Part shown: piece after piece, positions 28,577 to 36,485 of the stretch
Position numbering within the stretch: position 1 is the first letter of the stretch
Layout: every line of letters begins with the position of its first letter
Source of the DNA: Natrarchaeobius halalkaliphilus
GTDB lineage: Archaea; Halobacteriota; Halobacteria; Halobacteriales; Natrialbaceae
Reading direction: 5' to 3'
Length of the DNA stretch: 64,000 bases
NCBI RefSeq assembly: GCF_003841485.1
Contig: NZ_REFY01000003.1
Location: 372,001-436,000, forward strand
Program-made: the position numbers and the translations under genes
The notes under the pieces: generated by a model
What the model was told of the DNA's origin: nothing
Seen by the model: only the letters and a program-made list of their open reading frames with translations
Databases searched by the model: none

Positions 28577-28662
28577 TGATACGGATTACTGTAACGATTT
28601 ACCGGCGCACCCGCGACCCGGGCGGCGGGTGCGCCGGCAACGATTTACAGTAAACCGTATGA
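28577..28662. repeat. 86-bp palindromic element, copy A
   Basis: Imperfect 86-bp palindrome. Outer arms of 25 nt (28577-28601 and 28638-28662) share ATACGGNTTACTGTAA in inverted orientation. The inner stem of 13 bp pairs perfectly (28602-28614 with 28625-28637, CCGGCGCACCCGC), and the loop is 10 nt (28615-28624). It lies 35 bp after the UPF0173-like gene and 149 bp before the next ATG, outside any reading frame. Copies B and C have the same length and layout. Confidence 0.9.
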
Positions 28663-30367: not shown

Positions 30368-30453
30368 TGATACGGTCTGCTGTAAGTCAGTACCGACGTA
30401 TCCGGAGACCGGGTGCCGGATGCGCCGGTAAACAGTTACAGCAGACCGTATGA
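30368..30453. repeat. 86-bp palindromic element, copy B
   Basis: Same 86-bp layout as copy A: outer arms 30368-30392 and 30429-30453 share a perfect 16-bp inverted repeat ATACGGTCTGCTGTAA. The inner stem is 30393-30405 with 30416-30428 (CCGACGTATCCGG against CCGGATGCGCCGG, one mismatch and one G-T pair), and the 10-nt loop is 30406-30415. Intergenic, between the haem membrane protein and the 44-residue membrane protein. Confidence 0.9.
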
Positions 30454-32458: not shown

Positions 32459-35023
32459 TCACCGTTCGGTCTCGTTCGACTCGAGGTCCGCCGGCGTCTC
32501 GGGTTCGACGTCCGCGAGTCGCATCGCGTTGCCCGTCACACCGAGGCTCATCCCCATGTCCCCGATGAGGACCGCATGGATGACGGTGACGATACCGACC
32601 GGGGTTCCGGCGGCGAGGACGGCCTTCACCGCGAGACTTGCCCAGATGTTCTGTCGAATGACGTCGTTGGCCTTCCCAGAGAGTTCGTAGAGATACGGCA
32701 ATCGAGTGAGATCGTCGCCCATCAGCGCCACGTCGGCGGTCTCGAGCGCCGTGTCGGTTCCCGCGGCACCCATCGCGATACCGACGGTCGCGGTGGCGAG
32801 TGCGGGGGCGTCGTTGATCCCGTCACCGACCATGGCGACGTGACCGCGTTCGTCCCCGCCAGTTCCGTGCTCGCGCTCGAGTCGGTCGATCCACTCGAGT
32901 TTCTCGTCGGGGAGCAACTCGGCGTGGTACTCGTCGATGCCGACCTCGGCCGCGATCGCACGGGCGGTCCCCTCGTTGTCGCCGGTGAGCATGACGACGC
33001 CGACGCCCTGATCCTGCAGTCGCGAGACGGCCCACTTCGCTTCCGGCCGGACCCGATCCGAGACGGCGACGATCCCGAACGGCTGGTCGGCGGTTCCGAC
33101 GATGACGACCGTCTTCCCCTCGGCCTCGAGTCTCGGAAGGACGTCCTCGAGCACGTCGAGACAGCCCGCGCGGTCGCACTGAGACGTCGACTCGTAGCCC
33201 ATCGACTCGAGCGTCACCCCTCCGTCGGTCGTCGCGTGGGCGTGAGAGAGGTTCGCCAGCCCGTCGAAGAGATCGGGTTTACCGACGTAGTGTGTCGTGC
33301 CATCGATCTCCGCGCGGACGCCCTCGCCGGTCAGCGCCTCGAACTCGTTGATGCGGATGTCGTCCGTCGAGACGCCGCGTTCGTCCGCGTAGCCGACGAT
33401 CGCGCGTCCGACGGGGTGTTCGCTCCGGTCTTCGACAGCGCTCGCCCGCCGGAGTACGTCGTCCTCGTCGGCTCCCTCGAGCGGAATCACGTCGGTGACC
33501 GAGAGGTCGCCCTCGGTCAGCGTTCCCGTCTTGTCCACCGCGAGGACGTCGCTGTCGCCGACGGCCTCTAAGTGACGGCCGCCCTTGATGAGGACGCCGT
33601 TTCGTGCGGCGCTCGTGATGCCCGAAACCACGCTGACGGGCGTCGAGATCACGAAGGCACAGGGACAGGCGATAACGAGCAGCGTCAGCCCCCGCAGGAA
33701 CCAGGTGTTCCAGGACGCGCCGGCGAGAAGCGGCGGACCCACCGCAAGTCCGACCGCGAGGACGACGACGATCGGCGTATAGACGCTCGCAAACCGGTCG
33801 ACGAACTGCTCGCGTTTCGTCTGCTCGCGTTCTGCGTCTTCGACGAGCCGAACGATCCGGGCGATCGTCGAGTCGTCGGCCTCGCGGTCGACCGAAATCT
33901 CGAGATACCCCGATTCAGCGATCGTACCGGCGTACACCTCGTCGTCCGCCGCCCTGTCGACGGGAACGCTCTCACCGGTGATCGGTGACTGGTCTACGGC
34001 GCTTTCACCCGCGAGAACGACGCCATCGGCGGGAATCTTCTCACCCGGTCGAACCACCACGACGTCGCCGACCTCGAGGGCCTGGACCGGAACCGTCTCC
34101 TGACTGCCGTCTTCGCGCCGAACGGTCGCCGTTTCGGGGGAGAGATCCATCAGCTCGCGCAAGGAGTCCCGAGCACGATCCATCGAGAATCGCTCCAACA
34201 GTTCAGCGACGGAGAACAACACGGCCAGCATCGCCCCTTCGAAGGGGTGGTGTGCCGCGACGCTGGCGACGATACCCACGCTCATCAGGAAGTCGATGTC
34301 CAGACTCCGATTGCGAACGGAGTAGTACCCGTTGCGAATGATCGGCGTGCCCGCGATCACCACAGCTCCGATGAACAGAAGATGCGAGAGGGCGTACGTT
34401 CGCCCGGCGACGCTCGCCAGCGCCGGATCGAGAGCGGGAACGACGAACTTCAACGCCATTCCGGCGGTCACGAAGACGGCACCGATCGCGGTAGCGACCG
34501 CGCGACGGCTCGTCAGGATGGTCCGCTTTTCGATGAGTCCGTCGTCGTGTTCGCCGTGGAAGGTCGCCTCGTATCCGGCGGACTCGATCGCGCCGGTGAT
34601 CGCGCTCCGATCGATTCCGTCGGTGACGGCGACGGTGACGCGTCCAGACGCCGGCTGGGTTTCGATTCTCTCGAGATCCTCGAGGCCATCGAGTGCGTTC
34701 TCGACCTTCGACGCACACGAGGCACAGTCCATATCGGGGACCGAAAGCGTCAGTTCGGATTCGCCGGAGTCGACTTCGTAACCGGCCGCCCGAACACGCT
34801 CGCGGACTTCGTCTTCGCTCGCGAGCGCCGGATCGTACTCGACGAGCAATCGCCCGCTCGTTACCCGCGGCTCGAGATGGTCGATGCCCTCGAGCCGTTC
34901 GACGCTGTTCGTCACTTTCCCGGCACAGGACGGACAGTCCATGTCGGGGACCCGAAGCTCGAGCCGACGAGTCGTGCTCGTGGTTCCCGGCCGGGGAGAA
35001 GCCGACGGATCGGAATCGCTCAT
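32459..35023 (-). CDS. zntA: Zn/Cd/Pb-exporting P1B-type ATPase
   Basis: An 854-residue heavy-metal P-type ATPase. Two HMA metal-binding domains have CPSC at 30-33 and CASC at 100-103. The transmembrane metal site is CPC at 453-455 (IACPCAFVISTPVS), the phosphorylated Asp is 497 in DKTGT, TGES is present, and the last helices carry VLIGDMGMSLGVTGNAMRL. CPC with a polar/acidic site in the last helix points to the P1B-2 (Zn, Cd, Pb) group rather than copper. Start ATG 35023, about 28 bp after a TATA-like CTGTATAGT on the minus strand. The upstream co-oriented HTH-10 gene is a candidate regulator; element C separates them. Confidence 0.95.
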   Translation of the reverse strand: MSDSDPSASPRPGTTSTTRRLELRVPDMDCPSCAGKVTNSVERLEGIDHLEPRVTSGRLLVEYDPALASEDEVRERVRAAGYEVDSGESELTLSVPDMDCASCASKVENALDGLEDLERIETQPASGRVTVAVTDGIDRSAITGAIESAGYEATFHGEHDDGLIEKRTILTSRRAVATAIGAVFVTAGMALKFVVPALDPALASVAGRTYALSHLLFIGAVVIAGTPIIRNGYYSVRNRSLDIDFLMSVGIVASVAAHHPFEGAMLAVLFSVAELLERFSMDRARDSLRELMDLSPETATVRREDGSQETVPVQALEVGDVVVVRPGEKIPADGVVLAGESAVDQSPITGESVPVDRAADDEVYAGTIAESGYLEISVDREADDSTIARIVRLVEDAEREQTKREQFVDRFASVYTPIVVVLAVGLAVGPPLLAGASWNTWFLRGLTLLVIACPCAFVISTPVSVVSGITSAARNGVLIKGGRHLEAVGDSDVLAVDKTGTLTEGDLSVTDVIPLEGADEDDVLRRASAVEDRSEHPVGRAIVGYADERGVSTDDIRINEFEALTGEGVRAEIDGTTHYVGKPDLFDGLANLSHAHATTDGGVTLESMGYESTSQCDRAGCLDVLEDVLPRLEAEGKTVVIVGTADQPFGIVAVSDRVRPEAKWAVSRLQDQGVGVVMLTGDNEGTARAIAAEVGIDEYHAELLPDEKLEWIDRLEREHGTGGDERGHVAMVGDGINDAPALATATVGIAMGAAGTDTALETADVALMGDDLTRLPYLYELSGKANDVIRQNIWASLAVKAVLAAGTPVGIVTVIHAVLIGDMGMSLGVTGNAMRLADVEPETPADLESNETER

Positions 35024-35137
35024 TACCGCTCCGTAATCACCGAGTGACTATACAGGTTATTTGGCGTGCGCTAACTCTATCGTTGCAGAGTGCCAATCGA
35101 GCCACACTCCGACGGAATCTTCTCGTCCCAGGCCGTC

Positions 35138-35223
35138 TCATACGGTTTGCTGTGACTTTTTACCGGAGCGACCGCGAGCCGTCCTGCGGTCGCTCCGGTA
35201 ACGACTTACAGTAGACCGTCTCA
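35138..35223. repeat. 86-bp palindromic element, copy C
   Basis: Third copy with the same 25-13-10-13-25 layout: outer arms 35138-35162 and 35199-35223, inner stem CCGGAGCGACCGC at 35163-35175 pairing perfectly with 35186-35198, loop 35176-35185. Its right end (TCA, 35221-35223) is the stop codon of the HTH-10 gene on the minus strand, so it lies exactly between that gene and zntA. Confidence 0.9.
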
Positions 35224-35967
35224 AAGGGACGCAGCGAGCCCGTCGATCGGTTCGGATCCGTCGACGAACGTCGTCGCAAGCGTCGCCTCAGCTCGACGGA
35301 GGCGATACGAAAGCGTCGATCGCGGCACGTCCAGTCGGTCTGCGAGATCGGAGAGTTCGATCGCTCTCGGCGTCTCGTAGTAACCGTAGTCGACTGCGGC
35401 GCGAAGGGCGTCCCGCTGCTCGTCGGGGAGAGTCTCCTCGGGTTCGATGCCGGCACGCTGGGGATCGAGTTCCGTCAATCGGAGCATCTCCATTCCCGTA
35501 CACTCGCCGACTTCCTCGCCCAGCGCGTCGAAAAACTGGTGGATCGGTGCCTCGTTCCCGAGAACGATTCGCCACCGGTATCTGCGGCCCTCGCGGTAGG
35601 TCTCGAACAGCAGTCCGTCACCGAGATGCTCGAGGGCGACGTGGGGCACCGACGTACAGACGGAGGTCCGCTCCCAGTACGTGTAGACGACGAGGGTGTC
35701 GTTGGACCGATCGAGAACCTGAACCTCACAATCCGCGCCACAGTCGTCCTTGACGAGACAGTCCGCGAAGTAGTCGGCGTTCTCGTAGGCGCGCTCGAGC
35801 GCCTCGAGGGCCTCACCGGATCCGCTGGCGTGGTCGACCCGCCAGAGACTGTCCGCGCTGACGTGACACGACAGCGATCGGATCGACGTGTCGGGGTAGT
35901 CGGCAAGTACGTCTGCGACCGGATTTGTCCCCGGATCGTACTCGAGGGCGAAGACGAATTCTCGCAT
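35221..35967 (-). CDS. HTH-10 regulator, possible metal-responsive activator of zntA
   Basis: A 248-residue regulator. The C-terminal HTH-10 domain (LPDEQRDALRAAVDYGYYET, PRAIELSDLADRLDVPRSTL, SYRLRRAE) is clear. The N-terminal module starts MREFVFALEYDPGTNPVADV and contains a cysteine cluster C-x6-C-x3-C (CLVKDDCGADC) plus a further Cys in RTSVCTSV. Such cysteines are not general in HTH-10 proteins and could bind Zn or Cd. The gene lies directly upstream of zntA in the same orientation. The frame is open to 36027, but the ATG at 35967 gives the family N-terminus. Metal sensing is an inference. Confidence 0.85.
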   Translation of the reverse strand: MREFVFALEYDPGTNPVADVLADYPDTSIRSLSCHVSADSLWRVDHASGSGEALEALERAYENADYFADCLVKDDCGADCEVQVLDRSNDTLVVYTYWERTSVCTSVPHVALEHLGDGLLFETYREGRRYRWRIVLGNEAPIHQFFDALGEEVGECTGMEMLRLTELDPQRAGIEPEETLPDEQRDALRAAVDYGYYETPRAIELSDLADRLDVPRSTLSYRLRRAEATLATTFVDGSEPIDGLAASL

Positions 35968-36026: not shown

Positions 36027-36485
36027 ATGACCGAGCCGGCCGACTCGAGTGAAACGAGCGGGTTCCGTGATTTCTGGTCGTTTTACCGACGGTACACGGC
36101 TACGGCCGTCCACACAGCCGCAACAGCGGGACTCGCGATTTTCGGCCTCCTCGTGTTCGTCGATCCGCTCTTTGCGGTGGTCGCGATCGCCTGTTATCTC
36201 GCTCCACCGATCGTCTTGTACGTCCGGACCGACGAGCCGACGTATCCGCAGGCATCCGATCCGAGCACGAACGCCAGCGGACGTGAACTCGACACTGAAG
36301 CCGACCCGGTCGCTGATGAGATGACCGAAACCGCTGTCAACGGCGTTTCTGAGTCGACCATATCAAATACCGACACCGACAGCGACAACGGTGATAGCGA
36401 CACCGACAGAGACAACGGTGATACCGACACCGACAGCGACACCGATTCTGACAGCGATGACCGTGATGCCGACTCCGATGGCTGA
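36027..36485 (+). CDS. membrane-anchored acidic repeat protein
   Basis: A 152-residue protein with two closely spaced hydrophobic helices (AATAGLAIFGLLVFVDPLFA and VVAIACYLAPPIVLYV) and a C-terminal ~70-residue tail of D, S, T, N repeats (DTDSDNGD, DTDRDNGD, DTDSDTDSDSDD). The first ~85 residues look like a common haloarchaeal membrane-protein type. The tail is low complexity and probably grew by slippage. It diverges from the HTH-10 gene. Function unknown. Confidence 0.75.
   Translation: MTEPADSSETSGFRDFWSFYRRYTATAVHTAATAGLAIFGLLVFVDPLFAVVAIACYLAPPIVLYVRTDEPTYPQASDPSTNASGRELDTEADPVADEMTETAVNGVSESTISNTDTDSDNGDSDTDRDNGDTDTDSDTDSDSDDRDADSDG
36364..36470 (+). repeat. GAYACC/GACAGC-type microsatellite coding D-T/S-D repeats
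   Basis: Imperfect hexamer repeat (GACACCGACAGCGACAACGG and variants) covering about 100 bp and encoding the acidic tail of the membrane protein. It is in frame throughout. Confidence 0.75.

Follow-up and report, generated by a model that had tools for sequence, protein, structure and literature searches.

The window analysed here, a 64,000-nt stretch of the Natrarchaeobius halalkaliphilus genome, contains a strong palindrome placed exactly between the gene of an HTH_10 regulator and the heavy-metal exporter gene zntA. This arrangement raises the question whether regulator, palindrome and exporter act as one metal-response unit, as the first-pass annotation had proposed, or whether the palindrome reached the junction independently. 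The gene order and strands given there were found in the sequence (Table 1). In the neighborhood, the protein encoded at 36027-36485 (+) carries a Ser/Asp/Thr repeat tail at 36363-36485.

Table 1. Features at and near the regulator-zntA junction, with positions in the window.
Feature	Position	Strand	Remarks
Copy B, diverged, MITE superfamily	28581..28658		Target duplication TGA/TGA
Copy A, same MITE superfamily	30372..30449		Target duplication TGA/TGA
zntA, P1B-type heavy-metal ATPase	32459..35023	(-)	854 aa; two HMA domains, CPC motif
Putative zntA core promoter region	35024..35060	(-)	ATAACCTGTAT... in place of BRE/TATA; conserved sequence and spacing
Dyad, predicted regulator binding site	35061..35074	(-)	TTAGCGCACGCCAA; consensus TTGG-N6-CCAA; 37 bp before zntA ATG
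Left copy of target duplication	35138..35140		TCA; flank of copy C
Copy C, near-palindromic MITE core	35141..35220		80 bp, TACGG...CCGT, last base A mutated to C; 10-nt centre GAGCCGTCCT
Right copy of target duplication	35221..35223	(-)	Identical with regulator TGA stop (TCA on +)
HTH_10 regulator gene	35221..35967	(-)	248 aa; HVO_2928_N sensor-like domain and HTH_10 by Pfam matches

The regulator and the exporter form a conserved unit

The zntA product scored 496 bits against the Cd family model TIGR01512, above the cut-off of 313.5, and 392 bits against the Cu family model TIGR01511, just below the cut-off of 397, whereas its score against the NCBI ZntA model was well below the cut-off. Together with the HMA domains and the CPC motif, the match to the Cd-subfamily model places it among the P1B-2 exporters of the Zn/Cd/Pb type, with transport of these metals predicted. 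The regulator matched PF24281 (HVO_2928_N) with an E value of 6.9e-65 and PF04967 (HTH_10) with an E value of 1.4e-16. The latter match, at the C-terminus, reached 60.4 bits against a cut-off of 23.1, indicating a member of the HTH_10 (Bat-like) proteins, and the domain search of the regulator revealed no MerR, ArsR or TRASH domain. A Foldseek search with the AlphaFold model of the regulator (mean pLDDT 81) gave no convincing structural relative of the N-terminal domain, the best matches for the model being 5m86_A with a TM score of 0.42 and 3khx with an rmsd of about 15.

In named haloarchaeal genomes, zntA follows immediately and on the same strand in 79 of 80 regulator orthologues, though the linked loci are not all independent, as some repeat genomes of the first set (linkage 28/30) and some are near-identical in different genera and probably mobile. 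The sole unlinked orthologue lies on a stretch that ends at a contig edge, and none of the other 79 was found apart from a metal transporter. Distant paralogues of 37-44% identity are not beside zntA and have assorted neighbours, such as TFB, rhodanese, radical SAM, GST and COX1. The proposal that the regulator and the Zn/Cd exporter make up one unit is borne out by this conserved linkage; copy C is not part of the unit.

The regulator has cysteines at positions 34, 70, 76, 80, 104 and 156. The cysteine cluster singled out in the first-pass annotation is present, but its spacing is C70-x5-C76-x3-C80 and not C-x6-C-x3-C. C70, C76 and C104 are invariant in 81/81 aligned orthologues, which removes the concern that the cysteines might not be conserved, and C80 occurs in 42 of the 81. 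The cluster had also been called unusual for HTH-10 proteins; C80 is the only one of its residues special to this clade, and cysteines near the places of C70, C76 and C104 occur in several paralogues not adjoining zntA. Since C70 and C76 also turn up in paralogues that lie well away from metal genes, cysteines by themselves are no proof of metal sensing; conservation and gene context make them candidate metal ligands.

A dyad at fixed distance from zntA

Between copy C and zntA lies a dyad with one mismatch (TTAG) to the consensus TTGG-N6-CCAA. Of the 79 linked loci, 66 have the strict consensus and 8 of the other 13 have a near variant, the dyad taking the form TTGGCGCACGCCAA in Natrialbaceae, TTGGAATATTCCAA in another clade and a TTGGTG type in others. 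A second clade of regulator-zntA pairs (L140-L174), bearing TTGGAATATTCCAA, is near-identical across several genera and partly plasmid-borne, suggesting that a metal-resistance cassette has recently been spread by horizontal transfer. In the 58 loci where an in-frame zntA ATG could be recognised, the dyad precedes it by exactly 37 bp in 54 and by 36-38 bp in four; the distance from regulator stop to dyad ranges from -20 to 1632 bp. In L008 and L010-L028, the spacer between regulator and zntA extends from a few bases to more than 1 kb with various insertions, and the distance from dyad to ATG is nearly constant.

The zntA transcript is probably leaderless. Upstream activating elements of the GvpE type adjoin the BRE, and their closeness to it is essential (PMC4390858). 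Similar to the GvpE element, the zntA dyad lies just upstream of the expected BRE/TATA, which favours metal-dependent activation over repression. A repressor model with ArsR/SmtB-like logic, in which the regulator occupies the dyad and blocks the zntA promoter until metal releases it, is unlikely. The dyad does abut the promoter-like sequence, where a bound dimer could block TFB, but it ends 37 bp before the ATG and so upstream of the BRE/TATA position of a leaderless transcript, which is the place of a GvpE-type activator (PMC4390858). The weakness of the promoter-like sequence would also fit a promoter that depends on an activator.

The occurrence of the dyad follows that of the regulator. 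In a comparison of P1B ATPase genes, in which L277 is truncated, the dyad was found at this place in 26 of the 27 genes with an adjacent regulator and in none of the 19 without, the latter including ZntA homologues of 56-61% identity. Three exporter genes have the dyad but no regulator in the examined stretch: the regulator of L261 lies about 1.7 kb upstream, that of L280 is found on a separate contig in a genome that is fragmented, and the genome of L281 is 67% complete. Of 72 strict dyads in 671 kb searched, 66 belong to linked zntA loci and six lie elsewhere. Genome-wide, TTGGCGNNCGCCAA has only 8 matches with at most one mismatch, below the 29 of the reversed control, so the zntA site is not part of a large set. 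A wider regulon in N. halalkaliphilus was discarded on the same count, which gave no sign of one beyond zntA.

Residues 216/220 of the HTH vary with the base after TTGG, R/S being paired with C, R/T with A, and Q/S or G/S with T. Mapped onto a tree of 68 proteins, the pairing amounts to three changes, so that phylogeny could explain it, and a role of these residues in setting the specificity for the inner base of the dyad is suggestive and not proven. It is very unlikely that some other protein, such as one of the DtxR/SirR or Lrp-TRASH type, reads the dyad and that the adjacent regulator is incidental. Binding of the regulator to the dyad is a prediction, and a Cu P1B ATPase of Halobacterium is known to be under Lrp-TRASH control (PMC3600143). 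However, the restriction of the dyad to genes adjoined by the regulator, the scarcity of near-matches in the genome and the joint variation of helix residues and dyad all argue against a different factor.

The linkage, the dyad, its fixed spacing and its co-occurrence with the regulator constitute the observed unit. From it we infer regulator binding, activation over repression, metal sensing and the kind of metal, and propose a mechanism in which a regulator dimer would sit next to the core promoter, bound to TTGG-N6-CCAA at roughly -51 to -38 relative to the zntA ATG. The N-terminal domain would bind the metal of the exporter through C70, C76 and C104, with C80 added in this clade, and the metal-bound regulator would then raise zntA transcription. 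The regulator is thus probably a metal-responsive activator of zntA.

The palindrome belongs to a MITE-like family

Including its flanks, copy C forms a strong palindrome (35138-35223) with a calculated RNA fold of -49.2 kcal/mol and a z score of -4.66, for which an Rfam search yielded no credible family. The host genome (3.5 Mb, 12 contigs) has 79 BLAST matches with both strands counted, about 40 close copies and, when diverged copies are included, about 100 element ends per strand. The cores measure 78 bp, or 80 bp with the terminal T/A, and the whole element is an inverted repeat. Of 61 genomes sampled, 22 contain the element; each of the 22 belongs to the taxonomic family of the host, and none of those from other families has it.

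An exact direct 3-bp duplication (TSA) flanks 40 of the 47 copies read in the host genome and 59 of the 79 copies in six relatives, nearly always as TCA/TCA or TGA/TGA and at CTSAG-like targets. Were these bases part of the repeat itself, inverted TCA/TGA pairs should be seen; they occur only twice in the host genome, which identifies the bases as a target-site duplication. The elements are short, non-coding and multi-copy with inverted-repeat ends, their target duplication is of constant length, and empty sites exist in relatives. The family works like a MITE and is so called here, a label that does not assign it to an IS family. Mobility would depend on a transposase supplied in trans. The ends of the element are not found at any of the six DDE_Tnp_1 (PF01609) genes in the host genome, and eight stretches with seemingly unpaired ends contained no larger element bearing them.

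The palindromes might alternatively be structural RNAs, or repeats of the REP type that a REP-associated (IS200-like) transposase has dispersed, and not a DDE-type MITE. Such an origin would agree with a palindrome spanning the whole element, with its extragenic position and with the search for a partner DDE transposase, which found none, but the exact direct 3-bp duplication in most copies makes it rather improbable. IS605-type elements and PATEs make no target duplication (PMC3119063), and a PATE or IS200-IS605 derivative was rejected by the presence of the 3-bp duplication.

The 10-nt centre GAGCCGTCCT is inverted against the outer arms in about a third of the copies, as if the inner stem flips; such copies are L034 (4501-4587), L052, L053, L055-L059, L061 and L063-L066. 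Instead of T/A, the element often has G as its last base, with C as the counterpart at the opposite end; examples are copy C (35220) and several copies of relatives (L195, L197, L207, L213, L218, L231 and L235). This makes the end resemble the target GACGG, and end processing or conversion with the target flank is possible.

Excess at TGA stop codons

Using a home-made codon-usage gene caller trained on these loci, we found that 60 of the 126 copies in the host genome and six relatives sit exactly on a TGA stop (21/47 in the host and 39/79 in the relatives), and that none of the 126 lies inside a gene. TGA stops account for 5.6% and 7.7% of extragenic TSA sites and for 8% and 25% of CTSAG sites. 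Against the harshest background of 25%, the binomial tails are 0.003 for the host and 3e-6 for the relatives. The target consensus at stop-codon copies is GAC-TGA-GACGG, and the same but weaker consensus appears at other sites.

An empty site was sought for the stop-codon copy L036. Two same-genus genomes share the gene end GAC TGA, with the gap to the next gene unalignable, and a third aligns across with no room for an element, its stop being TAG. The stop codon of this copy thus most likely predates the insertion. The family has a weak tendency to orient its T5 run with the adjacent gene (25/37 C-type stop copies), and copies other than copy C may have a terminator role. By rebuilding the stop that it hits, the 3-bp duplication would render the mobile repeat harmless, which may explain the build-up of palindromes behind genes. 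If this is true, an insertion at TGA would restore the stop and give the transcript a hairpin at its 3' end, leaving the gene undamaged.

Probable insertion of copy C into the regulator stop codon

Copy C lies exactly on the stop codon because its family habitually sits on TGA stops. The first-pass annotation had rightly placed its right end at the regulator TGA and zntA beyond its left edge on the same strand; the gap to the ATG is 114 bp, however, and not 115, and the TGA is not newly supplied by the element but coincides with the 3-bp target duplication. This TGA is most likely native and was duplicated by the insertion, as element-free relatives end in TGA at the same length. We propose that copy C, a non-autonomous element, would have inserted into the regulator's own TGA, whereupon the TSA duplication would have recreated the stop with the protein unchanged.

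An element is present at the regulator stop in 3 of 110 loci, namely the own locus (L001), L003 and L005, with L097 being L003 repeated. The same-genus relatives L002 and L004 have no element there, and the regulator of L002 ends in TGA. Element-free orthologues such as L002 and L006 have the same length, 248 aa and TGA, with tails that vary ordinarily in the alignment, which contradicts the suggestion that the insertion altered the C-terminus of the regulator. The family members that follow this regulator stop in L001, L003 and L005 differ in subtype; repeated insertion, or shared ancestry with later homogenisation, may account for them.

Copy C is independent of the metal unit, being absent from most orthologous junctions, and its 3-bp duplication and the excess at stop codons are features of the family as a whole. 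It is separated by 63 bp from the zntA dyad, which lies downstream of it together with the promoter-like sequence, and should not interfere with them. The first-pass view of copy C as a functional terminator or attenuator belonging to the metal unit is highly improbable: the hairpin is very stable and stands at the 3' end of the regulator gene, in a family enriched at gene 3' ends, but it occurs in so few junctions, lies upstream of the dyad and promoter, lacks the U-run of archaeal intrinsic terminators (from regulator stop to dyad, the sense strand nowhere has four or more consecutive U) and has relatives behind many other genes genome-wide.

Comparison with known systems

Taken as a whole, the locus quite probably comprises a dedicated, most likely activating HVO_2928_N/HTH_10 regulator of zntA and an independent MITE in its stop codon. 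With less than even confidence, we suggest further that HVO_2928_N/HTH_10 proteins are an undescribed class of archaeal metal-sensing activators and that the palindromes are a mobile family targeting TGA stops. A literature search, with subscription journals mostly outside its coverage, found no earlier description of the regulator or of the repeat. With the regulator, its predicted site and the target gene located to the base in about 80 genomes, and with specificity residues predicted, the control of Zn/Cd export in haloarchaea becomes readily testable.

The MITEs and small mobile repeats (SMRs) of Haloquadratum are likewise about 80-110 bp long and non-coding, with inverted-repeat ends and tens of copies per genome, but SMRs insert into other elements and do not duplicate their target (PMC3119063). 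The family described here differs from SMRs in its 3-bp TSA duplication and its excess at TGA stops. Insertion sequences of the IS1031 group (IS5 family) generate a 3-bp TNA duplication. The T-N-A type of duplication is thus common to both, whereas the six DDE_Tnp_1 genes of the host are without the ends of the element.

Similar to haloarchaeal activators of the GvpE/Bat type, the regulator has its dyad directly upstream of the core promoter at fixed spacing. Bat is also an HTH_10 protein, whereas GvpE is leucine-zipper-like. The dyad sequence TTGG-N6-CCAA and the HVO_2928_N domain set the present system apart from both, and its response would be to metal. Bacterial ZntR-zntA and archaeal CopR/CopT or Lrp-TRASH are likewise systems in which a P1B metal exporter has a regulator of its own, either as a neighbour or in control of it; here this role is taken by an HTH_10 protein with an HVO_2928_N domain in place of a MerR, ArsR or TRASH domain.
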